Shown here: one piece after another, positions 1 through 54,600 of the stretch
Position numbering within the stretch: the stretch's first letter is position 1
How the letters are laid out: each line of letters begins with the position of its first letter
Assembly (NCBI GenBank): GCA_012837715.1
Contig: DUQR01000031.1
Location: 1 to 64,000 of the forward strand
Reading direction: 5' to 3'
DNA from: Bacillota bacterium
GTDB taxonomy: Bacteria; Bacillota; UBA4882; UBA10575
DNA: 64,000 nucleotides
Made by a program: the position numbers and the translations under genes
The notes under the pieces: generated by a model
Databases searched by the model: none
Told to the model about the DNA's origin: nothing
What the model saw: only the letters and a program-made list of their open reading frames with translations

Positions 1-43
1 GGAAGAGGATTCCCACTAAAGAAAAGAGGATTATTTTTTTCAT
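1..43 (-). CDS. 5' fragment of an exported flagellar gene, possibly flgH
   Basis: Only the first 14 codons lie in the window. The ATG overlaps the TGA of flgA as ATGA, and a GGAGGTGA stretch inside the flgA end serves as ribosome site, so the two genes are translationally coupled. The peptide begins MKKIILFSLVGILF, a typical signal-peptide start. In flagellar operons of outer-membrane bacteria flgA is often followed by the L-ring gene flgH or the P-ring gene flgI. The identity is inferred from position only. Confidence 0.45.
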   Translation of the reverse strand, partial: MKKIILFSLVGILF

Positions 44-999
44 TCTAAAGTCACCTCCACCATGCCGGGTCCAGTCACCGTTGCCGTCAACTTTTGGTTA
101 CTACCCAGATTGGTAACGGTAATCCGGTCGCCCAACCAGCCATGCTCTTCGGCTTGGGCGGTCAGTTCCACCTGGACCGGCCCGGACTCGAGTACTAACC
201 GGACTTTACTTCCTTTAAAGATCACGGGTTTTTCCTGTAGATCTTCACTCGTTAACACCTTACCGGCGGGCAGATCCCGAATCACCCAATATGCTTCCAC
301 CGGCAACGGAGTCAACCATTCTTTCCCCGTCACCAGCGCCCGCACTTCCCGGCTGAGACGATCGGCGGAAAGCTCGGTATACCGCTCCAGCTTTTGCGTA
401 GTGACGTAAACCGGGGCTTCAATCGTCAACTGAATGGTGACCGGCAGCGTAATAAAGACTGCACCGTCCACGACCACCCGGATACGGAAGGTGTTGCGGC
501 CAGGTTTTAAAGGGCTTTGCTCCCCTTCAATTTTTAACTCAAGCTCGCCGCAGGGGAGCGGCCGCTCTTGGAGGCGGCTGGGCTCTACCCGCCAGGCCGT
601 CCAGTGAGGAGAGGCCTCTGCCCGAAGGTACGCTTCCACCGCTGCCAAGATTTGCCCGGCGGTTAAAAGTTGGCCGGCTCTGCCCACCCGTACTTTGGTC
701 GGCATCTCCAGGGTACAGTCGCTTGCTAAGCCCGTGCGCTCCAAGGCGTAAAGCACATTCGTCCGGTAAAGCCAAGCTGTATCGCCAAACCGGGGCGCCC
801 GGCCCAAGTTAATGCGGGCAATCTTCTCCCGCTGCTCCGGGGGGGCAGTAATCTCCGCCAGCTCCCCCAGGATCATCTCGTCCCCCGCCACTTCAACCGC
901 AGATGGCACGGTAATGACGATCTCCGTTTCGGCGGCGGTGACCGGGAGAAATCCGGCCAGGAAAAGAAAGCTAAGCAAGAAGATCCAGCAGGGTTTCAT
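40..999 (-). CDS. flgA: Flagellar P-ring assembly chaperone FlgA
   Basis: The 319-residue product starts with a signal peptide (about residues 1-22, ending TAA before ETE), so it acts outside the cytoplasmic membrane. A SAF-type domain lies around residues 200-265 and a ChapFlgA-type beta domain ends the protein. FlgA chaperones FlgI during assembly of the P-ring around the flagellar rod. It follows flgG by two bases and overlaps the next gene, so it belongs to the same operon. P-rings belong to flagella that cross a periplasm and outer membrane, so the gene in a spore former suggests a diderm Firmicute. Confidence 0.9.
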   Translation of the reverse strand: MKPCWIFLLSFLFLAGFLPVTAAETEIVITVPSAVEVAGDEMILGELAEITAPPEQREKIARINLGRAPRFGDTAWLYRTNVLYALERTGLASDCTLEMPTKVRVGRAGQLLTAGQILAAVEAYLRAEASPHWTAWRVEPSRLQERPLPCGELELKIEGEQSPLKPGRNTFRIRVVVDGAVFITLPVTIQLTIEAPVYVTTQKLERYTELSADRLSREVRALVTGKEWLTPLPVEAYWVIRDLPAGKVLTSEDLQEKPVIFKGSKVRLVLESGPVQVELTAQAEEHGWLGDRITVTNLGSNQKLTATVTGPGMVEVTLE

Positions 1000-2700: not shown

Positions 2701-3717
2701 CTAAACGGAACGGCTTCCGACAATCAAGTTGCTTTTCTCGATATTCTCCAGGAGCTTGCCGGTGCCCAAGACAACACAGGAAAGAGGGTCCTCTGCTAAA
2801 TGTATCGGTATCCCGGTCTCTTCCTTTAATAGTTTTTCAAAACCATTAAGCAAGGCGCCACCGCCACTGAGCACCAACCCCTTGTCCACTATATCGGAGG
2901 CCAGCTCCGGAGGGGTACGCTCCAACACGGATTTGATCCCATCAATCACATTATTGATCGGCTCGGCCATGGCCTGGAAGGAATCGGCGGAAGTAAAGGT
3001 GATTGTCCGCGGTAAGCCGGTAACTAAATCCCGCCCGCGAATCTCCATACTTCTCCCTTCTCCTTCTGGATAGGCGGAACCAATTTGGATCTTGACTTCC
3101 TCGGCGGTGCGCTCACCGATCATCAAATTATACATTTTCTTGATATATTTAATAATGGCTTCATCAAATTTGTCGCCCCCAATCCGTAAGGATTGGCTGA
3201 CCACAATCCCACCCAGGGAAATAATGGCAATATCGGTTGTCCCGCCACCGACATCGACCACCATATTACCACTGGGTTCGTAAATGTCGATTCCGGCGCC
3301 AATCGCCGCGGCCATCGGTTCTTCAATCAAATAGGTGTTTTTGGCGCCGGCTTGTAGCGCCGCTTCTAAGACGGCCCGTTTTTCCACACTGGTCACTCCG
3401 GAAGGGATGCAGACGACAACCTGCGGCCGGAACAATCTTGGTTTGGGGCTTACCTTTTCAATAAAGTATTTCAGCATCGTTTCGGTGACATCATAGTCTG
3501 CAATGACCCCATCCTTCATCGGTCGGACGGCAATGATATTCCCGGGGGTACGCCCGATCATCCGCCGCGCTTCTTCGCCCACCGCCAGGATTTTCCCCGA
3601 CTCCTTATCTAAAGCCACCACCGAAGGCTCCCGGACCACAATGCCTTTACTCCGTACATAAACCAGGATATTTGCGGTTCCAAGATCAATTCCAATATCA
3701 CAAGAGAGATTCAACAT
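2701..3717 (-). CDS. mbl: Actin-like cell-shape protein Mbl/MreB
   Basis: A 338-residue actin-fold ATPase that organises elongasome cell-wall synthesis along the cylinder. Phosphate-1 motif [13 protein letters not shown] is at residues 9-21, the phosphate-2 region [13 protein letters not shown] near 155 and the adenosine motif [11 protein letters not shown] near 290. Its place directly downstream of spoIIID matches mbl of Bacillus and many Clostridia rather than the mreBCD operon, hence the name. The ATG is preceded by AAGGGGGC. Separate mreB copies, if any, lie outside the window. Confidence 0.93.
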
Positions 3718-3774: not shown

Positions 3775-4065
3775 CTATACTATTTTGGAATATCCTCCTT
3801 TTTTTTCCCCTTTTTCTAGCTTAGTCTGGTATTTACGCCGGGTTGCTTCCCCCCCACGGATATGTCTTTCTGCTTTATTGGTCTCCAAAACCCGTTTGAC
3901 TTCCTTCGCCAATATTTTATTAATCCCAGGTAATCTCTCGGTTACATCCTTATGGACAGTGCTTTTACTGACGCCGAAATGTCCGGCGGCTTGACGCACA
4001 GTAGCTTTTTCATTCACAATAAACCTACTTAGGTCGAGCACGCGCTGTTGAATATAGTCTTTCAC
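3775..4065 (-). CDS. spoIIID: Sporulation transcription regulator SpoIIID
   Basis: The 96-residue DNA-binding protein matches the usual SpoIIID length. It has a helix-turn-helix around residues 21-45 (VRQAAGHFGVSKSTVHKDV) and a basic C-terminus rich in Lys and Arg. SpoIIID acts in the mother cell after sigma-E to switch genes on and off before sigma-K. It starts with GTG after GAGGGTGGGGGA. The neighbours spoIID, the SpoIIQ-like gene and mbl are its classical neighbours, so assignment is secure. Confidence 0.95.
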   Translation of the reverse strand: MKDYIQQRVLDLSRFIVNEKATVRQAAGHFGVSKSTVHKDVTERLPGINKILAKEVKRVLETNKAERHIRGGEATRRKYQTKLEKGEKKGGYSKIV

Positions 4066-4158: not shown

Positions 4159-4908
4159 TTATTCGGACGGAAAACTAATCACCGCCAACGGATTGATCGG
4201 GTTTTCTTGTTGATAAAGGTTAAAATGGATCCCCGGTTCCGGACCGCAACTCTGCGGGGAACTATAGCCTAAAATCGCGCCTTGGGTGATATCCTGTCCG
4301 ACGGTCACTTGGACCCCGGTAAGGTGGCCGTATAATGAACGCCAATCGCCACCATGGTCGATGGTGACCACTGTCCCCAACGCCCCCTCGGTCTTAATTG
4401 CCACCACCTTACCGGCAGCGGCCGCCAACACTTTGGCGCCGGCGGGAACAGCCAAATCAATCCCGGAATGATACCGCCATTCATCCCCCTTCTTTTCCCA
4501 ACCACTATTCCGGACGACCTTCCCGGCGACCGGAGGAATCCACTGAATCGGGGAAACCGGTTTCTCCTCTTCTTCCCCGTCCTGCGAAGGCCGGTTCGTC
4601 TCCGCGATCCGTTGTCGTAATAGGGATAAGTCCTGCTGTAACTCACGCACCACCGCACTCAAATCCGCCGTTTCCGCCGCCGGTCCGCTTTCTTCCACCT
4701 GTAGAGGGGGAGAGGCTACCGGCGAACTAATCTGTCGGCCAATCCACCAACCAATGGACAAGAAAAGCAGAAAACCGAAGATCGCCACCAATAACCGCCA
4801 CCGGGGATCAAAACCGGTCCCGCCCAGACCTCTGCGGCGGAAAACTTGGGTCACCCGTTGTTTCCATCTTTCCCAACCAAGGTTAAAGTTGAATTTACCT
4901 TGTTTCAT
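4159..4908 (-). CDS. spoIIQ: SpoIIQ-like M23 (LytM) domain membrane protein
   Basis: One transmembrane helix lies near residues 38-58, followed by an acidic Pro/Glu-rich stretch and a C-terminal LytM/M23 domain. Position between spoIID and spoIIID matches SpoIIQ, which spans the forespore membrane and pairs with SpoIIIAH during engulfment. The first zinc motif is intact (H147-x3-D151) and YGHL is present, but the final HxH motif reads G226-I-H228, losing its first histidine, which is catalytic in active LytM enzymes. It may therefore bind rather than cut peptidoglycan. ATG 4908 is chosen because AGAGGTGA precedes it. An upstream ATG at 4935 is also open. Confidence 0.82.
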   Translation of the reverse strand: MKQGKFNFNLGWERWKQRVTQVFRRRGLGGTGFDPRWRLLVAIFGFLLFLSIGWWIGRQISSPVASPPLQVEESGPAAETADLSAVVRELQQDLSLLRQRIAETNRPSQDGEEEEKPVSPIQWIPPVAGKVVRNSGWEKKGDEWRYHSGIDLAVPAGAKVLAAAAGKVVAIKTEGALGTVVTIDHGGDWRSLYGHLTGVQVTVGQDITQGAILGYSSPQSCGPEPGIHFNLYQQENPINPLAVISFPSE

Positions 4909-5008
4909 TTTTCCCTTGTCACCTCTGTTGCGCATCGTAATACTGCGCTATGATATACTAGTTTTCCCAGTTGATCCTGATTTATCCTGATGATAAAGGA
5001 AAAATGAT

Positions 5009-5038
5009 CAAAAAAAACCGGCCAAAAATTATGGCCGG
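5009..5038 (-). terminator. Intrinsic terminator overlapping the spoIID stop
   Basis: A CCGGCC/GGCCGG hairpin is followed on the minus strand by eight T. The stem is built from the last codons of spoIID and its TAA lies in the loop. It should end a spoIID transcript before the SpoIIQ-like gene. Confidence 0.75.
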
Positions 5039-5967
5039 AGTTTCCTGATCTCCACGTCCTGATAGTAATAGTGGAGAATCTCCCGGAATGTTTTGCCCGC
5101 TTTCGCCAAACCATCCGCCCCATATTGGCACAGCCCAACCCCGTGTCCATAGCCGATTGTCGTAAAAATAACCTTACCGCCCTCAAGGCGAACGGTAAAA
5201 TTGGTGGAGGCCAACCCCAACCGGAAACGGAGGTCTACTCCCTGGTATACTTGATCCCCAATCTGAAGCGTATTCACCCTTCCGCTGGCGGTCCGGTCGA
5301 TAATTCGCAAGGGAAGACCGGTAGCGGGTAGTTTTTCACCCATCCCTAGAGCCGAAAGAAAAGCCGCGACGGTAAAAGCCTGCTCTTGACGGTAGCGGGG
5401 AGAATGTTGCCCAAAGGAACAGGGCACACTCTTTAAATAAGGGACCGGTGTCCCCCAGACTTCCTCCGCATTCGCGGTCCGGGGACCGCTGGTCGAATGG
5501 TACAAAGCATCAATGGGTTGCCCGTGATAAGTCAATACTAACCCCGCCGTCCCTTCCACGGCGGCCGTAATCTTCTGCCAGTTCCGGTAGTATCCCCAGA
5601 GGCCCCATTTGGCAATTAGTTGTTTTCTGTTACACCAGGCTTGGGAGTCGTGTACATCGTTACTTAGATCGGCGTCCGTGCCCGGGTAACCGGCGCCCCC
5701 GTAACGTTTCAAGCGGCGGACCGCTACGGTCCGGGCCGCCACCGCCTGGGCTTTTAAGGCCTCCGGATGGAAATTAGCCAGCATTTCTCCGGCAACGACC
5801 CCTTTAATATATTCTTCCAAACCTAAACTGATGGTTTTCTTCTCCTCTTTTAAATAGAGCCGGACCATAATCGGTGGTTGGCTGGGAAGACATTTTACCA
5901 AAAACAGGGGTAATAAACACAGCAGGATAAAGAAGAAAAGAAAAAAAATACCGATCGCCTGTCGCAT
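5029..5967 (-). CDS. spoIID: Stage II sporulation protein D, lytic transglycosylase
   Basis: The 312-residue protein has an N-terminal membrane anchor (residues 5-27, almost all Phe, Leu and Ile) and a SpoIID/LytB domain. The domain starts LEEYIKGVVAGEM, and Glu61 of that motif is the expected catalytic acid. The conserved AQAVAARTVAVRRL and GYGHGVGLCQYGADGLAK segments follow. With SpoIIM and SpoIIP it degrades septal peptidoglycan to drive engulfment. GGAGG precedes the ATG by six bases. It is transcribed with or just before the SpoIIQ-like gene, separated by a terminator, and is probably sigma-E controlled by analogy. Confidence 0.95.
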   Translation of the reverse strand: MRQAIGIFFLFFFILLCLLPLFLVKCLPSQPPIMVRLYLKEEKKTISLGLEEYIKGVVAGEMLANFHPEALKAQAVAARTVAVRRLKRYGGAGYPGTDADLSNDVHDSQAWCNRKQLIAKWGLWGYYRNWQKITAAVEGTAGLVLTYHGQPIDALYHSTSGPRTANAEEVWGTPVPYLKSVPCSFGQHSPRYRQEQAFTVAAFLSALGMGEKLPATGLPLRIIDRTASGRVNTLQIGDQVYQGVDLRFRLGLASTNFTVRLEGGKVIFTTIGYGHGVGLCQYGADGLAKAGKTFREILHYYYQDVEIRKLRP

Positions 5968-8713: not shown

Positions 8714-11104
8714 ATGGGTCGCAAAAAGCACAAGCGCTTTCCCACTTATTATTATATCCTTTTCTTCCTTTTCGTTTTGGCCGGTTTTCTCTTTGCCACC
8801 GTCACCTTGCCGAAGGACCTGCGGAGCAAAGTGGAGAGTATGCGTTATGTTTCAAAAGTATATGATCGTAACGGGCAACTGATTGGTAACCTGTTTTCCC
8901 ACCGCAAGATCTGGGTCCCTTCGGATAAAATATCACCCTATCTGAAAAAAGCAGTGGTCGCCACGGAAGATGCCCGTTTTTACCGACATTTTGGCTTGGA
9001 TCCGATCGGCATTGCCCGGGCCGTTTACCAAACCATCATCCCGGGTGGGCTCCGCCAGGGGGGAAGTACCATCACCCAGCAGCTAGCTAAGGTCTCCCTC
9101 TTAACTTTTGACCGGACCATCACCCGGAAGTTACAAGATATGTTTTATGCCCTCTTAATCGAGCGGACCTATACCAAAGATGAGATCCTCGAGCTTTACC
9201 TGAACAGTATCAACTTGGCCCATGGCAACGTGGGGGTGGAAGCCGCCGCCCGTTACTATTTTAACAAAGCCGCGGCTCAACTTAACTTGGTAGAAGCCGC
9301 TTTACTAGCCGGGATTATCCAAAGCCCGGAAAACTATTCCCCCTACAAACACCCGGAAGCGGCCAAAGGCCGACGCAACCTGGTCCTCCGTAAAATGTGG
9401 GAACAGGAGTATATTACGGAGAAACAGTACAAAACGGCAATTGAACAAGATTTAGGGGTTAAGCCTCAACAGGAGCGCTCTTCCGTCGGCGCCTATTTCC
9501 TGGATTACCTCCGTGATTACCTGACCACAACCGAAAAGTATTCGGAAGAAGAATTACTCTGGGGTGGTTACCAGATTTACACCACTTTGGATCTGGCCTG
9601 CCAACAAGCGGCGGAAGTTACGCTCAAGAACATTCCCCATTATTCGGCGGAAGTTCAGCCGGAAGCAGCCCTCGTAACGCTTGACCCAAAAAACGGCGCC
9701 ATCCTGTCGATGGTCGGTGGGCGCAACTACCCTACCAGTCCCCTAAACCGGAGTGTTAAGGCGTACCGCCAACCCGGTTCGGCTTTGAAACCTTTTGTCT
9801 ACGCCACTGCTTTGGAGCAGAATTTTACGGCTGCGACCATCCTCTACGATCAACCTTTAGAGATCCATTTAGAGAATGGGCAGATCTGGTCGCCGGAGAA
9901 TAGTAACCGGGAGTATCAAGGAAAGATTACCCTCCGTCAAGCTTTAAGGGATTCCGTCAATACCATTGCTGTCCAACTTGTCCAAACCCTCGGCGTTTCC
10001 ACCGTCGCGAGCCAGCTGGAACAGATGGGGATTAAAAGTCTGGTCCGGAATGGACAAGTTAACGACTTAGGCTTTGCCCCACTGGCTTTGGGCGGATTAA
10101 CAAAAGGAGTCACTCCGTTAGAGCTTACGGCAGCTTATACTGTCTTTGCCAACCAAGGTAAATACCTTGAACCATATGCCGTCGTCCGCATCGCCGATTA
10201 TCAGGGCAAGACCCTCAAAACCTTCAAACCAAAAGCAGGGCGGTCGGTAATTAGCCCGCAAACCGCCTATATCATGACTGTGCTTTTACAAGATGTGGTC
10301 GCCCAAGGCACCGGGCGACGGGCGCAGCTCCCCGATGGACGGCCGGTCGCCGGTAAAACCGGAACGACCACCGATTACACGAACGCCTGGTTTGTCGGGT
10401 ACACCCCCGAATATCTAACCACCGTGTGGATTGGTAATGACCGGCAGGAAGACCCGATGCGCTACAAAGAAGGAGTAGTCGGCGGTGGTACCGCGGCTGC
10501 CGTCTGGAGTGACTACATGGACGAGATAACCGCCGGTTTACCAGTAACAAACTTTACCGAACCGGAAGGGATCGTCTGGGCGCATGTGGATCCGGCAACC
10601 GGCCAAGCCATCCCGGCTTGGGCTAATAAAGACTCCTACCTGGAGGTTTTTGCCGAAAACAAAGTACCGGAAAGCGCTTCCTATAAGATCTGGCGTTGGT
10701 TTACAACCTGGCCAAAAAAGCTAAAGGGCGAAGACCCTCCGGAGCAGGAGTCTGAACCGATTCCGGGGCAAGAATTCCATCCCCAGCCTGGGCCAGAGCA
10801 GGAGTGGTCTGCGGGACAAGAGGGGGACGAGCATCCAGGCCAAGGTTGGGAGGCGTCTCCGGAAGAAACTCCCGATCAGAACCGGGAACAAGGAAGCACC
10901 CAAATCCCAGAACAGACCCAAACCCAACCGCCGGCGCCGTCTTGGGAACATCCCGCCAAGCAGCCTTCGGCCAGTCCGGGGAACTTCCCCCAGGGCAACC
11001 GCCCAAACAACAATAATCCACCCCAGCCGGCAGAGGCTGGCTGGGGTGGAGGGTCGGCCCAAAACCATAGGACCGTTATTTATAGAATTGATGGTTTCCA
11101 ATAG
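8714..11104 (+). CDS. Class A penicillin-binding protein (PBP1A type)
   Basis: A bifunctional peptidoglycan glycosyltransferase/transpeptidase of 796 residues. An N-terminal transmembrane helix (about 12-33) precedes a GT51 domain with catalytic Glu85 in ATEDARFYRH and GGSTITQQLAK. The transpeptidase domain has Ser356 in PGSALKP, SVN at 414-416 and KTGTT at 548-552. After about residue 660 the protein becomes a long low-complexity tail rich in Pro, Gln, Glu and Gly, rather like those of Firmicute PBP1s. The ATG follows GGAGATGATAAC. The end overlaps the convergent hydrolase gene by 29 bases. Confidence 0.95.
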   Translation: MGRKKHKRFPTYYYILFFLFVLAGFLFATVTLPKDLRSKVESMRYVSKVYDRNGQLIGNLFSHRKIWVPSDKISPYLKKAVVATEDARFYRHFGLDPIGIARAVYQTIIPGGLRQGGSTITQQLAKVSLLTFDRTITRKLQDMFYALLIERTYTKDEILELYLNSINLAHGNVGVEAAARYYFNKAAAQLNLVEAALLAGIIQSPENYSPYKHPEAAKGRRNLVLRKMWEQEYITEKQYKTAIEQDLGVKPQQERSSVGAYFLDYLRDYLTTTEKYSEEELLWGGYQIYTTLDLACQQAAEVTLKNIPHYSAEVQPEAALVTLDPKNGAILSMVGGRNYPTSPLNRSVKAYRQPGSALKPFVYATALEQNFTAATILYDQPLEIHLENGQIWSPENSNREYQGKITLRQALRDSVNTIAVQLVQTLGVSTVASQLEQMGIKSLVRNGQVNDLGFAPLALGGLTKGVTPLELTAAYTVFANQGKYLEPYAVVRIADYQGKTLKTFKPKAGRSVISPQTAYIMTVLLQDVVAQGTGRRAQLPDGRPVAGKTGTTTDYTNAWFVGYTPEYLTTVWIGNDRQEDPMRYKEGVVGGGTAAAVWSDYMDEITAGLPVTNFTEPEGIVWAHVDPATGQAIPAWANKDSYLEVFAENKVPESASYKIWRWFTTWPKKLKGEDPPEQESEPIPGQEFHPQPGPEQEWSAGQEGDEHPGQGWEASPEETPDQNREQGSTQIPEQTQTQPPAPSWEHPAKQPSASPGNFPQGNRPNNNNPPQPAEAGWGGGSAQNHRTVIYRIDGFQ
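11018..11049 (-). terminator. Hairpin in the PBP tail, likely terminator of the hydrolase gene
   Basis: A perfect 11-bp stem (CCACCCCAGCC with GGCTGGGGTGG, loop of 10) lies 27 bases past the stop of the minus-strand hydrolase gene. On the minus strand it is followed by ATTATTGTTGTTT. It is embedded in the coding sequence of the PBP C-terminal tail. The T-tract is imperfect. Confidence 0.5.
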
Positions 11105-11927
11105 TCACGGTCGGTTTTAGCTTAGCCGTGTTAAAAAACCGGGCTCCTTCCCGGGAGGCAAGTCTGGGGTTGTAATAAAATAAAGCGCCCCGGGAAGGAT
11201 CCCGGCCGGCAAGGGCCTCCCGCGCTGCCTGTAAAGACTGGGCGTTCGGTTCTATGGTGGCCAGTTTTGGCAGACAACTAAACTGGCCGGGTTGGTAAAT
11301 CACATCATAAATCGTATTGGGAAACTGGGGACTTTTCACCCGGTTTAGCACCACCGCCCCAACAGCTACCTGTCCCTCAAAGGGCTCGCCTTCTGCTTCC
11401 GCCCGGATCAGTTTGGCCAGTAAGTAAAGGTCCTGATCGGTATTTCTTGGCCTCCGGGAAGAGACCGGAGTATATCCATAGTGGAGAGCAAGGCCAAGAA
11501 AGGGCGCCAACCGGTTCTGTTCTCCAACTAGGTTAGTCGGGACCAGTCGGCCTTCCACCGCCGTCGAAAGACCTTTAATCAGCCAATCCAAATGGAGTTC
11601 CAAACCGACGGTTAATTCGATTCTTTGGTCGAGCGGCAACTGGCTGAGCGCCAGGGTGTCCCGTACCCCCAAACCAACGTAGGAGTGAAAATGGGTGCCT
11701 GATTGTGGAATATAGAGGACAGCTAAACCCAGATCTTCCCCTTCCCAGGCATAAACGGAACGTAAACCCCAGTTAGGCGTAAACCACCAGTTTAGTTTCA
11801 AAGCCTCCGGAGCAATCCCCTCTTTTATTTCCCAATCCAAACCAAACTGCCAGGAAGCAGCCATCGACGGTGAAGTGGTCAACAGGACGGATAAAACAAT
11901 AACTATAATCGTAACCTTTCTCATCAT
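11076..11927 (-). CDS. SleB-type cell wall hydrolase with N-terminal beta-barrel-like domain
   Basis: The 283-residue protein has a signal peptide (1-23, ending SMAA). Residues 24-155 are a run of alternating polar/hydrophobic strands rich in Trp, Tyr, Leu and Gly, about eight in number, like a small outer-membrane barrel. A linker (SSRRPRNTDQ) leads to a Hydrolase_2/SleB domain at about 165-283 with LIRAEAEGEPFEGQVAVGAV, VLNRV and YYNP. SleB-like enzymes are lytic transglycosylases that cut spore cortex or wall, and the Glu in RAEAEGE is the likely catalytic residue. The barrel reading is inferred from pattern only. GGAGGTGG precedes the ATG. It is convergent with the PBP gene. Confidence 0.75.
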   Translation of the reverse strand: MMRKVTIIVIVLSVLLTTSPSMAASWQFGLDWEIKEGIAPEALKLNWWFTPNWGLRSVYAWEGEDLGLAVLYIPQSGTHFHSYVGLGVRDTLALSQLPLDQRIELTVGLELHLDWLIKGLSTAVEGRLVPTNLVGEQNRLAPFLGLALHYGYTPVSSRRPRNTDQDLYLLAKLIRAEAEGEPFEGQVAVGAVVLNRVKSPQFPNTIYDVIYQPGQFSCLPKLATIEPNAQSLQAAREALAGRDPSRGALFYYNPRLASREGARFFNTAKLKPTVTIGNHQFYK

Positions 11928-46673: not shown

Positions 46674-49085
46674 CTAATCGCTAATCTCCAGCTTAACCTC
46701 GGTGCTTCTCCCCCGGTCGTCCTGGCAGATTACCCGGTGACGACCGGGTTTCGGTAGATAAAAGAGGCGTTCTCCCGGTTTGGTGTGGCCGTAAAGCTCC
46801 CCGTCGATAAACCAGTAGAGGCGCTGCACATCATTGCCGGCCGCCGCTTCAAGGCAGATTTTCTGATACTCCAGGGGAATTCCGCGGCGGATTTGATAGA
46901 CATAATCCGGCGAGGGCGAACGGACCACCGGGGCGCCGCCCGGTAGGATCTTTTGCCACTCGGGCAGCAAAGGCGGGAGCTTTTCCACCGGTTGTCCATT
47001 CGCCTCAAGCCAGGCCGCGACCCGGGGCGGGTACTGCAAATAAACCTGCTCTACTGTGTCCCGGGCCGCCGAGTAGTAATGGGGCGGGAGGCGGTAACCG
47101 GTCGCCGGATCCAGCAGATAGGTCTGATGGAGCGTACACTCTACTTCGGGCGAACAATCGGTTAAATAATAATCGGTGCGTAACGGGGTACAGAACGGAC
47201 CGGGTGTTTGGCCGCTCAACGCGCATACTGCTCTCTTTTTGACGGTCGCCGGTGGCGAAAACCAGGAAACGGTGGTGTTACTGTTTAAATGGTTAAAGAT
47301 AGTAAAGAGGAGCGGGGCGGCCTTCTCAGCCCCGTTCAGTCCGGCCCGTCCCTCCCCGGAAAAGTTTCCGACCCACACCCCCACGGTATAGCGGGGATTA
47401 TAACCAATGCTCCAGGCGTCTTTATGGCCATAAGAAGTCCCGGTCTTCCAAGCCACCTTCGGTAAGGTGGTAAACTCCCAACAGGTGGGAAGGTCGGGTC
47501 GGCGTACCTCGGTCAGGATCTCGGTAATAATATAGGCTGCTCCCGGTGAAAACAACGGAAGCGGAGGTGAATTTCCTTGTTCAAGCCTGGTTTGTACCGG
47601 GTAGATCTTTCCGCCACTGGCCAGCGCGGCATAAAGATTGCTTAACTCAAGGAGGTTAACCTCACACCCGCCGAGCACCATCGGCAAGCCGTAGTGGTTT
47701 ACCGGGGTCAGCGTCGTGAACCCGGCTTTTTTTAACAGTTCGTAGAGGGTCTCACCCTCCAAAGCCGCCAGCAGATTCACCGCCGGCACATTGAGCGATC
47801 TTTGCAGCGCTTCCTGGGCAGAGACCAGGCCGGAATAGGTAGAGTCGTAATTCTGCGGGGTATAGCCGGAATACAGCACCGGAACATCTTCCACGTAATG
47901 GGCGGGGGTGATCAATCCTTTTTCTAAAGCAAGCGCATAAACGAAAGGTTTCAAGGTTGAGCCCGGCGAACGGGGGGCCAGATAACCATTGACCTGTCCC
48001 TGGTCTTGTTCATTAAAAAACGCCGCGGACCCAACCGCCGCCACCAGTTGGTGGGTGTGGTTATCAATCACCACCACCGCCCCATTGGTGATTCCTTCCG
48101 CTTTTAACTTCGCCACCTCCAGCGTGAGCAAATCTTCGAGAAAGACTTGTAAATCAGCATCAATGGTGGTATAGATACGGGCTTCCCCGGGATAACGTGA
48201 GACCAGCTCTTGACTGAAGTGGGGCGCCCGAAAGGGCCACTCCCGACGGGCGGTCGGAATCTCCTCCGCCAACGCTTCCCGGTATTCGGCTTCCGTGAGC
48301 AACCCGTGGTCAAAAAGGCGTTTTAACACCTTATCCCGGGCTTCACGCGCCCGCTCGGGGGCCAGATCCGGGCGGAACTGGGTCGGCGAGTTGGGCAGTA
48401 CGGTGAGTAGTGCCGCTTCCCCGGGGCTTAACTGGGTCGGTTCCTTCCCGAAATAGAGCCAAGCCGCGGCGGCCACCCCTTCAATATTACCGCCATAGGG
48501 AGCAATGTTAAAATAGATGGTCAAGAGTTCTTCTTTGGTGAACCGGTGTTCCAGTTGGAGGGCACGAAAGAGCTCGATCAACTTGTTCCGCCAGGTTCGC
48601 GCTTTCGGCTCCATCATCCGGGCAATTTGCATCGTCAAGGTGGACCCGCCGGAGATAATCCGCCCGGAGCGCAGGTTCTGTCCCAGCGCCCGGACTAAGG
48701 CCATCGGATTAACCCCCGGGTGGTAATAAAACCAACGGTCTTCATAGAAGACCAGGTATTTCTGGAGCAGTGGCGAGACCTGCCCGAGATCGGTCCGGAT
48801 CCGCCACATCCCATCGGCCGAGGTAAACGCCCGGAGCACCCTCCCCTCCCGGTCAAAGACCAAAGCCGAAGAGGGCCGTTCCAGCGCCACCCAAGGTAAT
48901 GGAATCAAATAAATAGCCAGCTCAAAAAGGATCAGAAGAAGGAGGAAAACCCCCAACCCCTTTTGCAGTCGGGGGTTCATCCGCGCCCATCGGGTGTATA
49001 GTTTGCGTAGCAAGGCCTTGAGCCGGTCACCAACAAAACCGGCGCCCTTGACGCAGCTTTCCTGTATTCGTCTAGCTAATTTCAT
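46674..49085 (-). CDS. pbpC: Penicillin-binding protein 1C
   Basis: An 803-residue bifunctional PBP of the PbpC family. An N-terminal transmembrane segment (about 42-65) precedes a GT51 domain with the EDRWFYYHPGVNPMALVRAL motif and GGSTLTMQIARM. The transpeptidase follows with PGSTLKPF, SLN and KTGTSYG. A BiPBP_C domain of about 95 residues ends the protein. ATG 49085 follows AGGTGAG. An in-frame GTG lies three codons upstream. The alpha-2-macroglobulin gene upstream is its usual partner in bacteria with an outer membrane. Confidence 0.93.
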   Translation of the reverse strand: MKLARRIQESCVKGAGFVGDRLKALLRKLYTRWARMNPRLQKGLGVFLLLLILFELAIYLIPLPWVALERPSSALVFDREGRVLRAFTSADGMWRIRTDLGQVSPLLQKYLVFYEDRWFYYHPGVNPMALVRALGQNLRSGRIISGGSTLTMQIARMMEPKARTWRNKLIELFRALQLEHRFTKEELLTIYFNIAPYGGNIEGVAAAAWLYFGKEPTQLSPGEAALLTVLPNSPTQFRPDLAPERAREARDKVLKRLFDHGLLTEAEYREALAEEIPTARREWPFRAPHFSQELVSRYPGEARIYTTIDADLQVFLEDLLTLEVAKLKAEGITNGAVVVIDNHTHQLVAAVGSAAFFNEQDQGQVNGYLAPRSPGSTLKPFVYALALEKGLITPAHYVEDVPVLYSGYTPQNYDSTYSGLVSAQEALQRSLNVPAVNLLAALEGETLYELLKKAGFTTLTPVNHYGLPMVLGGCEVNLLELSNLYAALASGGKIYPVQTRLEQGNSPPLPLFSPGAAYIITEILTEVRRPDLPTCWEFTTLPKVAWKTGTSYGHKDAWSIGYNPRYTVGVWVGNFSGEGRAGLNGAEKAAPLLFTIFNHLNSNTTVSWFSPPATVKKRAVCALSGQTPGPFCTPLRTDYYLTDCSPEVECTLHQTYLLDPATGYRLPPHYYSAARDTVEQVYLQYPPRVAAWLEANGQPVEKLPPLLPEWQKILPGGAPVVRSPSPDYVYQIRRGIPLEYQKICLEAAAGNDVQRLYWFIDGELYGHTKPGERLFYLPKPGRHRVICQDDRGRSTEVKLEISD

Positions 49086-49227
49086 CGTACTCACCTGTTA
49101 ATGTTCCAAAAGTCTTACTAGAATCCTTTACAAACCATAGCAAATCTAAATGATCATACCACCGCCGACAAGCGGCTAATCCTAATCTTGCTGTAAAGCT
49201 TGAAAACCCCAACGGCTGCTTTCAACC

Positions 49228-52200
49228 TTAATCGCGCACCACCCGGATGGCGCCGCTCGAGCTGAAACTGGCGATCTCGGGGGCATACATACATTCCGCT
49301 TTGATTGAAGGCAGGATAAACTCCCCGCAAGTCACCGCCCGCAGGGCGTAATAGAATTGATAGGTCCGGACCTTCGGAAAACTAAAGAAGAGGATCAAAC
49401 GGTCATCCCGGACATCCATATAATCGGGGCGCATCGCTTCCTGGGTCAGCCAGGAGATGCTTTCCCTACTCTCGATCCGGGGGTTTTCCATCTCCAAACC
49501 CGCCGGGAGCAGATCAATGATCCCCACATGCTCAAGGCCAGCTTGCTCCGGCTGGATCGTAATCCGGGCAATCAGCAAATCCCCTTGGCGGATCTGGTTT
49601 AGCGCTACCGGATTGCCGTGGCGGTCAAAGAACTCCCTGGTGACCTGGATGCCGTTACTCTCCTCCGACAGATCAGTACGGGTGGAAAGGCCGCTACTTT
49701 TCAGGTAATAGTAACACTCCCCGTCCCCTTCCAGTTTCACCGTTATTTTCCCTTCCGCCAGGCGCGGATCATTTAAAACCAAATCCTGTGCCGAGTCAAA
49801 CTCGGCAATCTTCTCTTTACCCAGGTACACTTCGCCCCAGTATGTCCCGTCACTCTTTTCTTGATAAAGCTTCCCTAAAGCCATCAGGGCAAAAGCATTC
49901 TCCTGGGTGGTTCCCCACCGTCCGCCCAGCGCCGCCTTGTTGAGCCGGTTCACCAACTGGTAAACGGCAGGATTATGGGGATCGACCTCCGCCAGCACAC
50001 TGAGGATAATCGCATCCGCGCGCACCGTGGAGTTGAAGTACCCCCCGCTTTCCCGCGGGAAGATCTGGACCGCAAAAGAAGTGGGGAGAATTTCCCGGGC
50101 AGTCACCCGGTCACCGGTGTAGAAGTAAGCGCCGGCCAAGAGAGCCCGAACGTCGTTACTGAGTTCCGAGGCGTACCGCCGCCAGTAGGCCATCGTCGAC
50201 AGGTCGGGACTACCGTTTAAACTTAGTACATAAAGGGCATAAATCTTCGCTTGCAGGCGATGAAGGGCGGTTTCCTTGCCCCGGACAGTTGCTTTTAGAT
50301 ATGAGATCATCCGGTTATAAACCCGGTCGGCCACCACGTACCCTGCCTTGCGCGCTTCCACCAGAAAGTGGGCGGCATAAATCGAGCTCCATTCGTTACC
50401 TCTGTTCCCCCCGGGCCAGTAAGCAAAGGAGCCGTCCCGGAGTTGCATCGCCTCGATTTTCTCGATCCCTTCCGTCACATAATAATCAGCCGTCCCCGTG
50501 AAGGTTCCCCCTTCCACCGCACTCAGCAACTGATCGAAGTAGAGCAGGGGAAATAGCTTCGAAACCGTCTGTTCCAGACAACCATGGGGGTAGGTTAAGA
50601 GGTATTCCAAACTGCCAGCCAGTTCCACCGTGGGGAAAGGTGAAAGCGCCAGGGTATAGGTGGCCGTCCCCGGCAGCCACCGGTCCTTTATGTTAAAAGT
50701 CAGCGGTTCAGTATGGGTAATTGTCCCGGAACTGATCTGATGGGTCACCGGCACCGGCGGCCGCAGTGCCAGCTCTTCTTCGAGCGCGCACAGCTCCCCA
50801 TTGCCTTCCACCTCCAACCGGAAACGGAGTTTCCCCATGCCTTGGCTGGCTTTCAACTGGAAGTAAGCAACCTGTTCCTCCTCAGGCCCAAGCTCAAGCG
50901 TGACCAAGGGCTTACTCTCTAAAGTCACCGGGCCTTCGGAGCTTAAACGGAGTTTAAACTCACCGGCCTGGCCGGTTCCGTTAAAGACCGCCACCGGCAC
51001 GGTGAAGCGATCCAGCGGCGCCACAAACCGGGGGAAGGTCGGAGTCATTACCAGCGGATCCCGGACAATGGTCTTCATTTCGGCCGAGCCGAAACGCTGC
51101 CCGTCAAAGGCAACCGCCATCAACCGCAGGGTCCCGTTGAACTGCGGGAGCGTGAATTTGACCATTGCTTCACCGCTGGCATCGGGAGAAACCAGCCCAG
51201 ACCATAAGGACACCGGCTTCACCCGGCGGAGGGAAACCGGATTTAAGTTTTGCTTCCGCACCCCGTCTAAGAAATCCCGGTCTCCACCAGGGGTGCTCTG
51301 GGTCTTCATTCCCTCGACTTCCGGGAGGAGTAAACCATACAAATCATGGCTAGTCAAACTCAAGCGCCGTTTACCATAGAAGAAGGCAAAAGGATCGGGC
51401 GCCGCATAATCAGTGAGTTGACAGATGCCTTCATCCACCGCGGCCAAGGTCAGATAGGTCCCGGGCCCGGAATTTTTAACCTGTACTTTAATCTCCACCT
51501 CCCGGTTGGGGCGGAGTTCAGCGGGCACCGTAAGGTCAACTCCCAAGCGGGCATTGTTATTGTCCACCATTAATGGAATCGTCCCAAAGGCGCGGGCCGG
51601 AGCTTGATCCTCGAGGCCATTAACGGAACGCAAGAGATGGACCGACAGATAAGCATTGGGTTTATACTCTTCTTTCACCGGGATCGAAACCACACCGGTA
51701 TTGGCTGCCAAGTCGACAACCCAATAATCATAAACCCTTTCCCGTTCGACCGTGACTAAAGCCTTCCCGGCAAAAGGCGCTTTAATCTGTAAGCGCGCTT
51801 CCTCACCCACTTGGTACCGGTCCTGTTCCAGATCTAATTCGATCTTATCCGGATCCTCCATGGCCCAGGGCGAGTACCCCCAGCCGCTGGCGTAGAAGGA
51901 ATGAGAAGCCTGGGCCTCTGTCTTTGGATCGCGCAGGACAATTTGGTAACGCCCATAATCCCGCGGCGTGTACGTGAATTCCGCTTCGCCCTGCTGAGGA
52001 GTTAGTTCTTCGTTATAAACTTTCCGTCGTTCTATTTCCGATACATAACGATAGCGCCCGTCGGTGTCCTTCCGGTAGATCGAATTCCAGGTCAGATGGT
52101 ATACTTCAGCCGTTAATTGCGCAGCCGGCGAGGGGTTCCCCGCGGGATCAAGGACCACATATTTCAGCGAAAATGGTTTTCCTAGTTCACAATAGTTACC

Positions 52201-54600
52201 GGTCAGCGCTTTCACCCCAATATAATTGGCATAGGGGTGAAAAGTCACCGCTTGGTAGTTACTGACCGCCCGGCCGCCATCTTCAATCACCGTCGCTTGA
52301 ATGATCGCGTTCAGTCTGGCCGGTGGGGTTAAACCCTGTGGAAAGCGGTAGGTGAAAGTCGCTTGGCCCTCGGTATCAAGTTTGTCCTCACCCAGCTCCT
52401 CTGTTTTCGCCACAAAACTACGGTCCGGGTCGCCAAAACGGTACGAAGCATAGGCGGGAGGCTTAAAGTCGGCGGCTTCCAAACGCAGCTTGACCTCGGT
52501 TCTCCGCCCCGCTGCCGGCGGGCCGAACAAGTTAACCCCTTCAACTTTAATCTGGCATTCTTCCCCCGGTTGATAAGTATCCCGGTCGGGCGTGACAGTG
52601 ACTTTGATCCGGTCCGGCATAAACTCTTCCACCTGGAAGGAGGTGCTGCCAATCACGTTCTCACCCACGATAATATGGGCCTGGTAATTCCCGGTCTGGG
52701 CGTAATCGGGGATTTCCAGTTTGAAGGCACAAGCCCCCCGGTCCGCCGTGTTCCCAACCAGCTCACGAAAGATCTGGCCGTCGGGCTGCCGAACTTCCAA
52801 CTTGACCGGGAACTCCGGCGGTAGAACCGCCCCCGGTCCGCGCACCACCGCTACCAAGTTACCTTCGTCCCCGGGGCGGAAAATGTCCCGGTCTAAGTAG
52901 GCAAAAGCCTCATACCCTTCTTCCAAATAATCACGGCCGCGCACATCAAAATCGGTGGTCGTGATCTGACTACTCTTTAGATGGACAAAGGAAAAGTCAT
53001 TCCCCGCTTCCGCCAGGATAATTAGGGGCTCGGCCGGATCGCCCGGCAGCTGATAACCGGTAAAGCGGGCAATCCCTTGCGCATCGGTCTCGGCTGTGGC
53101 CATAATCTGATTATTTTTACTGATCAGACTGACCTTCACCTTTGCTTTGGGCGCCAAGGTTTCCAGCGAATTGACCCAGACCAGCAGATCGTTTTTTCCC
53201 ATTTTTCCGACGATCCCCAGGTCGGTAATGATCACATACTTATAATCATTACGCCAGCGGCGTTCATAATCATAGACCGCGACTTGGAAAACACCCTTAA
53301 ACTCGGCGTCCATGTACTGACCAAGGTTGATCGCAGTGGTCACCACCTCGTTTTTGGCCCCGGCAATCTCCAGCTCTTCTTCCTTCACCAGCTTGCCTAG
53401 GTAGGGCAACTGCCAGCTATAAGCGTACTCGGACTGGGTGGAATCCAAGTGATTGAGAAAGGGAATCAGGTTGTTGGCGTAAATCTGATGGATCTCCAGC
53501 TGCACCCGTTCGATATTAACCGTTTCCAACCCCAAATTGAGGGCGCCTTGACTGTTCAGATACCGTCCACGGGAGGTAAAGCTGAGTCCCGGATCCAGAT
53601 CCCCCAGGGTGATCATGGCCGCAAAGTCCTTGGCCAGCGGTAAACCATTAACCGCCGGTAATCCGGCATTTAGACGGAGATGATAATTCTCCCCCCCTTT
53701 AAACTGGTCACTCTTAATGAAGAGCAGATCTTTATCGGTCTCAACGGTATAATTAACCCCCGGTTTAAGCTCAATGAAACCGGCCGCCGTTTCGGCATCC
53801 ACCGGCTCTGAACACTGCACAGTGATCCAGTATTTGCCGCCAGCGCCTTGTAAAGCCGCATTCAGGATCTGCAGCGGTTTTTTGGCGCCCACCGTGGTCT
53901 CGGCGCGGTAGGCAGCGGCCAGTCCCTTTTGCCCGCCGACACAGAGAAAGTCCTTGGGCAGCGTAATCGTTATTTTCTGTTCCTTCTCCTTAAAGGGAAC
54001 CGCAGCACTGACCACGGTCAATTCCCGGCTGTTTCCGGTCTCTCGCACGGTGTAGGCCAGTTCAGCGTTGGTTCCCGCCAGCTGGAGTTTAAGCGCCTTC
54101 TCAAGCTCAATGGGGGAAACCGGATAATTGAAATGAAGCCTCGCTTCCAAAATTACGCCTTCCCGGTCCTCAGAGGTGATAAAAGTAGTCGTGATCTTTT
54201 CTACCCGGAAACGGGCGGTGGAAAATTCCACGGTTCTTTTTCCGGAGACCGGTTTTCCCTGCACCGAAACGAGTCCACTGTTCACCTCCGCCTGGTATGT
54301 GGTGGACGGCAATAAAGGAACTTCCGGTAAAAAACGGAGTTCCCGTTTAGTAACCCAGCGGTACTTACCTGGAATCGCCGGGGTAAATTTGACGAATTCG
54401 GTGGAGAGGGTCACCCCCACCTCTTCTTCCTTGACCATATCCTCGGAAAAGGTGAAGGTCAAGTTGGTGTGGGGTTCCACCTCTCCCGCCGGTTCCATTC
54501 CCAATAAGCGCACGTTACCACCGGCATTGAGGATCCAAAACGAACAGCAGACAATAAAGATAAACAAAATTCCGTAAACGATCGGTTTCTTGTTACCCAA
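49228..54600 (-). CDS. Bacterial alpha-2-macroglobulin with thioester
   Basis: A 1790-residue protein of the YfhM/ECAM-like A2M family. One N-terminal hydrophobic segment (about 8-27) is followed by several MG-type beta domains, a bait-like region and a thioester domain. The thioester motif GCLEQ has Cys1341 and Gln1344. These proteins trap proteases in the periplasm and pair with PbpC, which repairs the wall. The start is TTG after GGGGGGTAGG. No lipobox is seen, so it is held by the anchor. It is the longest gene in the window and ends 143 bases before pbpC. Confidence 0.93.
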   Translation of the reverse strand: MGNKKPIVYGILFIFIVCCSFWILNAGGNVRLLGMEPAGEVEPHTNLTFTFSEDMVKEEEVGVTLSTEFVKFTPAIPGKYRWVTKRELRFLPEVPLLPSTTYQAEVNSGLVSVQGKPVSGKRTVEFSTARFRVEKITTTFITSEDREGVILEARLHFNYPVSPIELEKALKLQLAGTNAELAYTVRETGNSRELTVVSAAVPFKEKEQKITITLPKDFLCVGGQKGLAAAYRAETTVGAKKPLQILNAALQGAGGKYWITVQCSEPVDAETAAGFIELKPGVNYTVETDKDLLFIKSDQFKGGENYHLRLNAGLPAVNGLPLAKDFAAMITLGDLDPGLSFTSRGRYLNSQGALNLGLETVNIERVQLEIHQIYANNLIPFLNHLDSTQSEYAYSWQLPYLGKLVKEEELEIAGAKNEVVTTAINLGQYMDAEFKGVFQVAVYDYERRWRNDYKYVIITDLGIVGKMGKNDLLVWVNSLETLAPKAKVKVSLISKNNQIMATAETDAQGIARFTGYQLPGDPAEPLIILAEAGNDFSFVHLKSSQITTTDFDVRGRDYLEEGYEAFAYLDRDIFRPGDEGNLVAVVRGPGAVLPPEFPVKLEVRQPDGQIFRELVGNTADRGACAFKLEIPDYAQTGNYQAHIIVGENVIGSTSFQVEEFMPDRIKVTVTPDRDTYQPGEECQIKVEGVNLFGPPAAGRRTEVKLRLEAADFKPPAYASYRFGDPDRSFVAKTEELGEDKLDTEGQATFTYRFPQGLTPPARLNAIIQATVIEDGGRAVSNYQAVTFHPYANYIGVKALTGNYCELGKPFSLKYVVLDPAGNPSPAAQLTAEVYHLTWNSIYRKDTDGRYRYVSEIERRKVYNEELTPQQGEAEFTYTPRDYGRYQIVLRDPKTEAQASHSFYASGWGYSPWAMEDPDKIELDLEQDRYQVGEEARLQIKAPFAGKALVTVERERVYDYWVVDLAANTGVVSIPVKEEYKPNAYLSVHLLRSVNGLEDQAPARAFGTIPLMVDNNNARLGVDLTVPAELRPNREVEIKVQVKNSGPGTYLTLAAVDEGICQLTDYAAPDPFAFFYGKRRLSLTSHDLYGLLLPEVEGMKTQSTPGGDRDFLDGVRKQNLNPVSLRRVKPVSLWSGLVSPDASGEAMVKFTLPQFNGTLRLMAVAFDGQRFGSAEMKTIVRDPLVMTPTFPRFVAPLDRFTVPVAVFNGTGQAGEFKLRLSSEGPVTLESKPLVTLELGPEEEQVAYFQLKASQGMGKLRFRLEVEGNGELCALEEELALRPPVPVTHQISSGTITHTEPLTFNIKDRWLPGTATYTLALSPFPTVELAGSLEYLLTYPHGCLEQTVSKLFPLLYFDQLLSAVEGGTFTGTADYYVTEGIEKIEAMQLRDGSFAYWPGGNRGNEWSSIYAAHFLVEARKAGYVVADRVYNRMISYLKATVRGKETALHRLQAKIYALYVLSLNGSPDLSTMAYWRRYASELSNDVRALLAGAYFYTGDRVTAREILPTSFAVQIFPRESGGYFNSTVRADAIILSVLAEVDPHNPAVYQLVNRLNKAALGGRWGTTQENAFALMALGKLYQEKSDGTYWGEVYLGKEKIAEFDSAQDLVLNDPRLAEGKITVKLEGDGECYYYLKSSGLSTRTDLSEESNGIQVTREFFDRHGNPVALNQIRQGDLLIARITIQPEQAGLEHVGIIDLLPAGLEMENPRIESRESISWLTQEAMRPDYMDVRDDRLILFFSFPKVRTYQFYYALRAVTCGEFILPSIKAECMYAPEIASFSSSGAIRVVRD

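Follow-up and report, generated by a model that had tools for sequence, protein, structure and literature searches.

Ring genes in diderm Firmicutes are already in print, and the locus described here fits a known group and is not something new. In 2016, Antunes et al. reported the six genes flgF-flgG-flgA-flgH-flgI-flgJ in the Negativicutes and Halanaerobiales, and read them as the P- and L-ring genes of LPS-diderm Firmicutes (PMC5007114). They favoured inheritance of the ring genes and suggested that flgH, flgI and flgA were excised once in the monoderms, with flgJ kept in two of them (PMC5007114). An operon of the order mbl-flgF-flgG-flgJ has been described in Eubacterium, Roseburia and their relatives, and one of the order mbl-flhO-flhP in Bacillus, and the significance of the arrangement was called unknown (PMC3720852). 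Outer-membrane genes are likewise found as a set in the Limnochordia and related UBA genomes, which are further diderm Firmicutes; mud and digesters were the source of most of the 46 UBA genomes (Taib et al. 2020, as cited in PMC11456536). In Escherichia coli, flgF, flgG, flgH, flgI and flgJ are likewise consecutive, whereas flgA is separate and on the opposite strand.

The window analysed here is the first 64 kb of one contig (C14) of a draft genome of 2.44 Mb in 53 contigs, with a reported completeness of 98.7% and a reported contamination of 0.03%. A run of minus-strand genes occupies its left end, reading from position 5967 down to position 1. The run opens with spoIID, encoding an engulfment peptidoglycan enzyme (5029-5967; PF08486, 9.7e-22), continues with an M23 peptidase gene (4159-4935; PF01551, 1.6e-24), and reaches spoIIID, encoding a mother-cell transcription factor (3775-4065; PF12116, 1.9e-40). 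From its place between spoIID and spoIIID, we guess that the M23 peptidase is possibly SpoIIQ-like. Next come mreB/mbl (2701-3717; PF06723, 2e-150), the rod gene flgF, also called flhO (1880-2614; TIGR02490 at 2.1e-50, slightly under its own cut-off, with the Pfam rod domains above theirs), and the distal rod gene flgG, also called flhP (1002-1790; TIGR02488 at 3.1e-111, above cut-off). The last complete gene is flgA (40-999), whose product is a periplasmic P-ring chaperone of 319 aa with an N-terminal signal peptide. The preliminary description had named this gene from the letters alone, together with its ATGA coupling to a following gene, and both points hold: the protein is matched by Pfam PF13144 (ChapFlgA) at 1.4e-20 and by NCBIfam TIGR03170 (flgA_cterm) above cut-off, and the TGA of flgA overlaps the next ATG at bases 43-40. 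The gene that begins there (1-43, start codon 43-41) can be read for 14 codons, MKKIILFSLVGILF, before the remainder is lost at the contig end. It had been placed where flgH or flgI normally lies, and this position agrees with two close relatives, in which flgH stands there with a similar N-terminus; we therefore identify it as flgH, the gene for the L-ring protein. The spore genes that had been noted as neighbours are confirmed as well, and the window thus carries SpoIID and SpoIIID, two sporulation proteins expected of an endospore former. Further along the window (11076-11927, minus strand) lies a gene for an exported protein of about 150 aromatic-rich residues of unknown sequence followed by a SleB-type cell wall hydrolase domain; its AlphaFold model, computed from the single sequence, had a mean pLDDT of 34.7 and was not used.

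The relatives supply what the contig end has removed. A scan of genome contigs found flgA 74% identical over residues 1-319 in the first relative (L001) and 60% identical over residues 15-319 in the second (L002). Both have the order flgF-flgG-flgA-flgH-flgI-flgJ, with a complete FlgH of 190 aa whose N-terminus resembles the 14 codons of the window, so that flgA, flgH and flgI stand complete beside the rod genes in these two genomes. FlgI of the first relative is matched by NCBIfam at 5.9e-102, above cut-off. The best NCBIfam match of its FlgH is 2.1e-33, yet every NCBIfam FlgH model stays under its own cut-off; Pfam FlgH was matched over cut-off in three genomes of the same genus. A search of the window's own genome with the FlgH profile PF02107 found no FlgH. 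That genome has a FlgI tail at C8:60246-60419 of 60429, corresponding to the last 58 profile positions of PF02119 and lying 10 bases from the end of its contig, and next to it in reading order, also at the C8 end, is flgJ (L015:14854-15150, minus strand), in which only the rod-binding domain was found. In other words, flgA and the FlgI tail sit on two contig ends, and just 14 codons of flgH are left. Most likely, the larger part of flgH and of flgI is lost in a gap of the assembly that separates C14 from C8, and because the FlgI tail points to such a gap, the missing FlgH match no longer counts against the finding.

We therefore read the left end of the window, with a probability of roughly 0.94, as part of a ring-gene operon interrupted by the contig end, in an LPS-diderm Firmicute that probably forms spores. 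The operon would read spoIID, M23 peptidase gene, spoIIID, mbl, flgF, flgG, flgA, flgH (with the contig break), flgI and flgJ. If the assembly steps are carried over by analogy from the flagella of Proteobacteria, FlgA would most likely chaperone FlgI into a P-ring around the FlgF/FlgG rod, FlgH would then form the L-ring at the rod's passage through the outer membrane, and the growing rod would be capped by the short FlgJ, which has the rod-binding domain only. FlgJ of the window's genome has 98 aa, whereas that of E. coli has 313 aa. The remainder of the E. coli protein is a peptidoglycan-cleaving part, whose task another gene would take on here. The six flg genes are the same as in the cluster of the Negativicutes and Halanaerobiales; the upstream run spoIID-M23-spoIIID-mbl is seen here but is not mentioned for that cluster in the available part of PMC5007114. 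Likewise, mbl, flgF, flgG and flgJ follow one another in the same order as in the operon of Eubacterium and Roseburia, which the available part of PMC3720852 describes without flgA-flgH-flgI and without drawing a link to ring genes. The position of flgA between flgG and flgH separates the present cluster from that of E. coli.

How common this arrangement is can be seen in a sample of 398 genomes of the phylum. FlgH was matched in 85 of them and Omp85 in 102 (101 above cut-off), and the two occur together in 84 genomes, against about 22 expected without association; because the sampled genomes are related to each other, these counts are not independent events and a formal P value would be meaningless. 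The one genome with FlgH and no Omp85 match (G366, locus L136) is fragmented into about 320 contigs, and its case is possibly one of missing data. Conversely, Omp85 without FlgH is seen in 18 genomes, including the window's own, in which flgH is cut, and G246, which has a weak match; the others may be non-motile or incomplete. Adding the two close relatives to the 85 FlgH loci gives 87 ring loci, in each of which ten genes were searched for. Among these ten genes, the order flgF-flgG-flgA-flgH-flgI-flgJ is found in 82/87 loci, and the five exceptions consist of a split flgG or flgI frame in L002 (a masked stretch) and L083, and of a contig end in L060, L100 and L116. SpoIIID lies within the fetched stretch of 37/87 ring loci, in 25 of them together with mbl. 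Spore genes beside ring genes had been presented as an oddity of this DNA; the adjacency is real, but it recurs, and proximity of ring and spore genes is common in the group, since SpoIIID is in the stretch of 37 of the 87 loci.

The counterpart of the ring locus is found in genomes without rings. SpoIIID was matched in 327/398 genomes, and from those with SpoIIID but without FlgH or Omp85, 60 were selected manually from among the listed genomes with the strongest SpoIIID matches, the second 40 mostly as one per family; we infer that these 60 are monoderm. Their spoIIID stretches hold mbl in 54/60 cases, flgF and flgG in 27/60, and mbl, flgF, flgG and flgJ together in 23/60, and these counts of kept genes are lower bounds, some stretches ending early at contig ends. 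flgA, flgH and flgI were found in none of the 60 stretches. Between the flgG stop and the start of the flgJ match there are 50-135 bases in 21 of the 23 loci, and 302 and 390 in the other two. The ring-less cluster is thus the same cluster minus the three ring genes flgA-flgH-flgI, and the spore-gene neighbourhood is a gene order common to ring-bearing and ring-less Firmicutes. These counts agree with the excision that Antunes et al. (2016) put forward, and they join that proposal (PMC5007114) with the mbl-flgF-flgG-flgJ operon (PMC3720852).

It might be argued that the ring genes were not inherited but acquired horizontally by a monoderm lineage from a different, diderm phylum. Two quick, unrooted trees bear on this point. 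A FlgF+FlgG tree (85 ring rows and 27 ring-less) has one change of state, on a branch with a weak support of 41, and a tree of Mbl, SpoIIID and SpoIID (25 ring rows and 54 ring-less) also has one, with a support of 98. Because they are quick and unrooted, and because a strong SpoIIID match was the basis for choosing their ring-less genomes, which form a biased sample, the trees do not decide between one loss and several; being unrooted, they also leave room for transfer, since gain and loss are not told apart. Even so, flgG and flgJ flank the site whether the rings are there or not, a single order prevails throughout the ring loci, the ring genes go with Omp85 in 84/85 genomes, and Antunes et al. 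argue for inheritance (PMC5007114), so that we consider transfer very improbable and retain the operon of a diderm Firmicute as the reading of this locus.

The genome contains both the ring-related genes and the machinery of an outer membrane. For the synthesis of lipid A it has LpxC (2.7e-87) together with LpxA, LpxB, LpxD and LpxI. There are six Omp85 matches, four of them above the Pfam cut-off; two of the proteins, of 605 aa, combine POTRA and Omp85 domains and are of the BamA type, and of the two weaker matches, under the cut-off, one is ShlB-like and Pfam calls the other simply a peptidase. TamB, OmpH/Skp, LptA-like, LptC and two LptF/LptG proteins are also present. Many of these genes are clustered: one run on C16 reads TamB, BamA, OmpH/Skp, an unknown gene, LpxD, LptF/G, an LptD candidate, LptC and LptA-like, and another on C3 contains LpxB, LpxC, FabZ, LpxA, LpxI, an LptA-like protein and LptF/G, with TonB, ExbB and ExbD on C29. 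Because the genome holds genes for LPS, Bam, Tam and Lpt, the proposal of a diderm Firmicute made in the preliminary description is supported. It had been staked against an unrelated gene behind flgA in a genome without outer-membrane assembly genes, and that combination is not what the genome holds. As for the three proteins that it had suggested looking for, BamA is there in the two proteins just mentioned; LptD is represented by a candidate of 733 aa in the lpt cluster, weakly matched by PF03968 at 0.0044, below cut-off; and OmpM, a protein with SLH and porin parts, was not found, as the three proteins with SLH matches showed no match to a porin, in a search of a draft that could miss a divergent OmpM. 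The OmpM tether is usual in LPS-diderm Firmicutes and is not a requirement for being diderm. The only match to the OmpA family, about 11 kb away from fliF, is probably MotB; since FliF is present, a flagellar motor is encoded.

Against this background, flgA might be seen as a relic kept by a monoderm Firmicute, with an exported gene of non-flagellar function behind it. The 14 codons of the following gene and the empty PF02107 search leave some space for such a view, which is nevertheless extremely unlikely given the LPS, Bam, Tam and Lpt genes, the FlgI tail of the genome itself, and the complete flgH and flgI at the same place in close relatives. Hardly more credible is contamination, in which outer-membrane and ring contigs of another bacterium were binned with a monoderm spore former, as a draft of 53 contigs with its outer-membrane genes on contigs other than that of the window might suggest, for the reported level is 0.03%, flgA shares its contig and its gene run with spoIID and spoIIID, and all nine other genomes of the same family in the sample (9/9) have FlgH and Omp85, eight of them with the six flg genes in the same run as spoIIID and mbl and the ninth with a stretch that begins at a contig end. 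The interrupted ring operon of an LPS-diderm Firmicute is thus the reading on which we build.

Several other genes relate to the cell envelope. In the window, a gene for a PBP1C-type protein with Transgly, Transpeptidase and BiPBP_C domains (46674-49094, minus strand) adjoins one for a bacterial alpha-2-macroglobulin of 1790 aa (49228-54600, minus strand); we take this pair to be typical of diderm bacteria, and it would fit an outer membrane. Elsewhere in the genome, two small exported proteins, P0001 (C27:28658-29275; L024:8659-9279) and P0002 (C29; L025:8276-8974), have one SLH domain each, together with a stretch resembling a coiled coil and, in place of a porin, a hydrophobic helix at the C-terminus, the helix being judged by eye. 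P0001 carries W-x-Y and TRYE, as the SLH domain of OmpM does (PMC10628300). It has matches in 16/16 family genomes, strong in 15, and its gene is near a pyruvyl transferase gene and a WecG/TagA gene, one gene away. Both proteins are candidates for a putative cell-wall tether without a barrel. On C40, a very long open reading frame of 2136 aa (L020:148-9417) and a gene for a ShlB/FhaC-like transporter are separated by about 2 kb, and the two may form a two-partner secretion system in a Firmicute.

The L-ring protein itself appears to differ from that of the best-known flagella. FlgH of Salmonella is a lipoprotein, whereas FlgH of Helicobacter pylori is not, and the L-ring of the latter is positioned beneath the outer membrane (PMC11756786). 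The Lol pathway is required for FlgH in E. coli (PMC5105897), and its machinery has been described as restricted to the Gracilicutes (PMC10628300). The E. coli protein has the lipobox LTGC, whereas FlgH of the first relative has no Cys in its signal region. The window's own FlgH ends before the cleavage site, so the result rests on the other Bacillota FlgH proteins, in which we searched for the canonical pattern [LVI][ASTVI][GAS]C within the 30 residues that precede an S-L-W-like motif; 4 of the 87 were dropped from scoring, having no motif or no N-terminus. The canonical lipobox is present in 4/83 scored proteins (L002, L101, L107 and L123) and absent from 79/83, and in three of the four more hydrophobic residues follow the Cys, as judged by eye. 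The Bacillota set thus departs from the Salmonella/E. coli type of L-ring, in which FlgH is a lipoprotein. A looser pattern is found in 8/87 (L002, L078, L086, L101, L105, L107, L112 and L123). Because a Cys occurs anywhere in those 30 residues in 40/83 and within 12 residues of the motif in 17/83, a lipid anchor may still be present in individual proteins, for example L086 or L107. FlgI of the same loci served as a control: with 17 dropped, it has the canonical pattern in 1/71 and a Cys in 30/71.

The LolA profile PF03548 matched 9/398 genomes, three of them above cut-off, and none of the 102 Omp85 genomes of the sample. This absence applies to the present sample and model and is not general, because Antunes et al. 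report LolA in the Halanaerobiales (PMC5007114). Together, the 79/83 FlgH proteins without a canonical lipobox and the 0/102 Omp85 genomes with LolA suggest that the L-ring is lipid-free in most of these Bacillota diderm lineages. Its place may be beneath the outer membrane, the position reported in H. pylori, or protein-LPS contacts alone may hold it in that membrane. The literature searched, including the available parts of PMC5007114, PMC11756786 and PMC5105897, yielded no statement on FlgH lipidation in diderm Firmicutes, and one may exist elsewhere. We give even odds to the broader proposition that the diderm Firmicutes of this phylum have a lipid-free L-ring with nearly all FlgH exported unanchored, and that loss of the outer membrane removed exactly flgA-flgH-flgI from between flgG and flgJ.

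What emerges is a concrete, undated picture of one flagellar cluster that exists with or without three ring genes and tracks the outer membrane. Its value lies in the gene-level comparison of the cluster with and without rings and in the prediction for the L-ring, which raises the structural question of whether an L-ring that lacks a lipid anchor would be embedded in the outer membrane or not.
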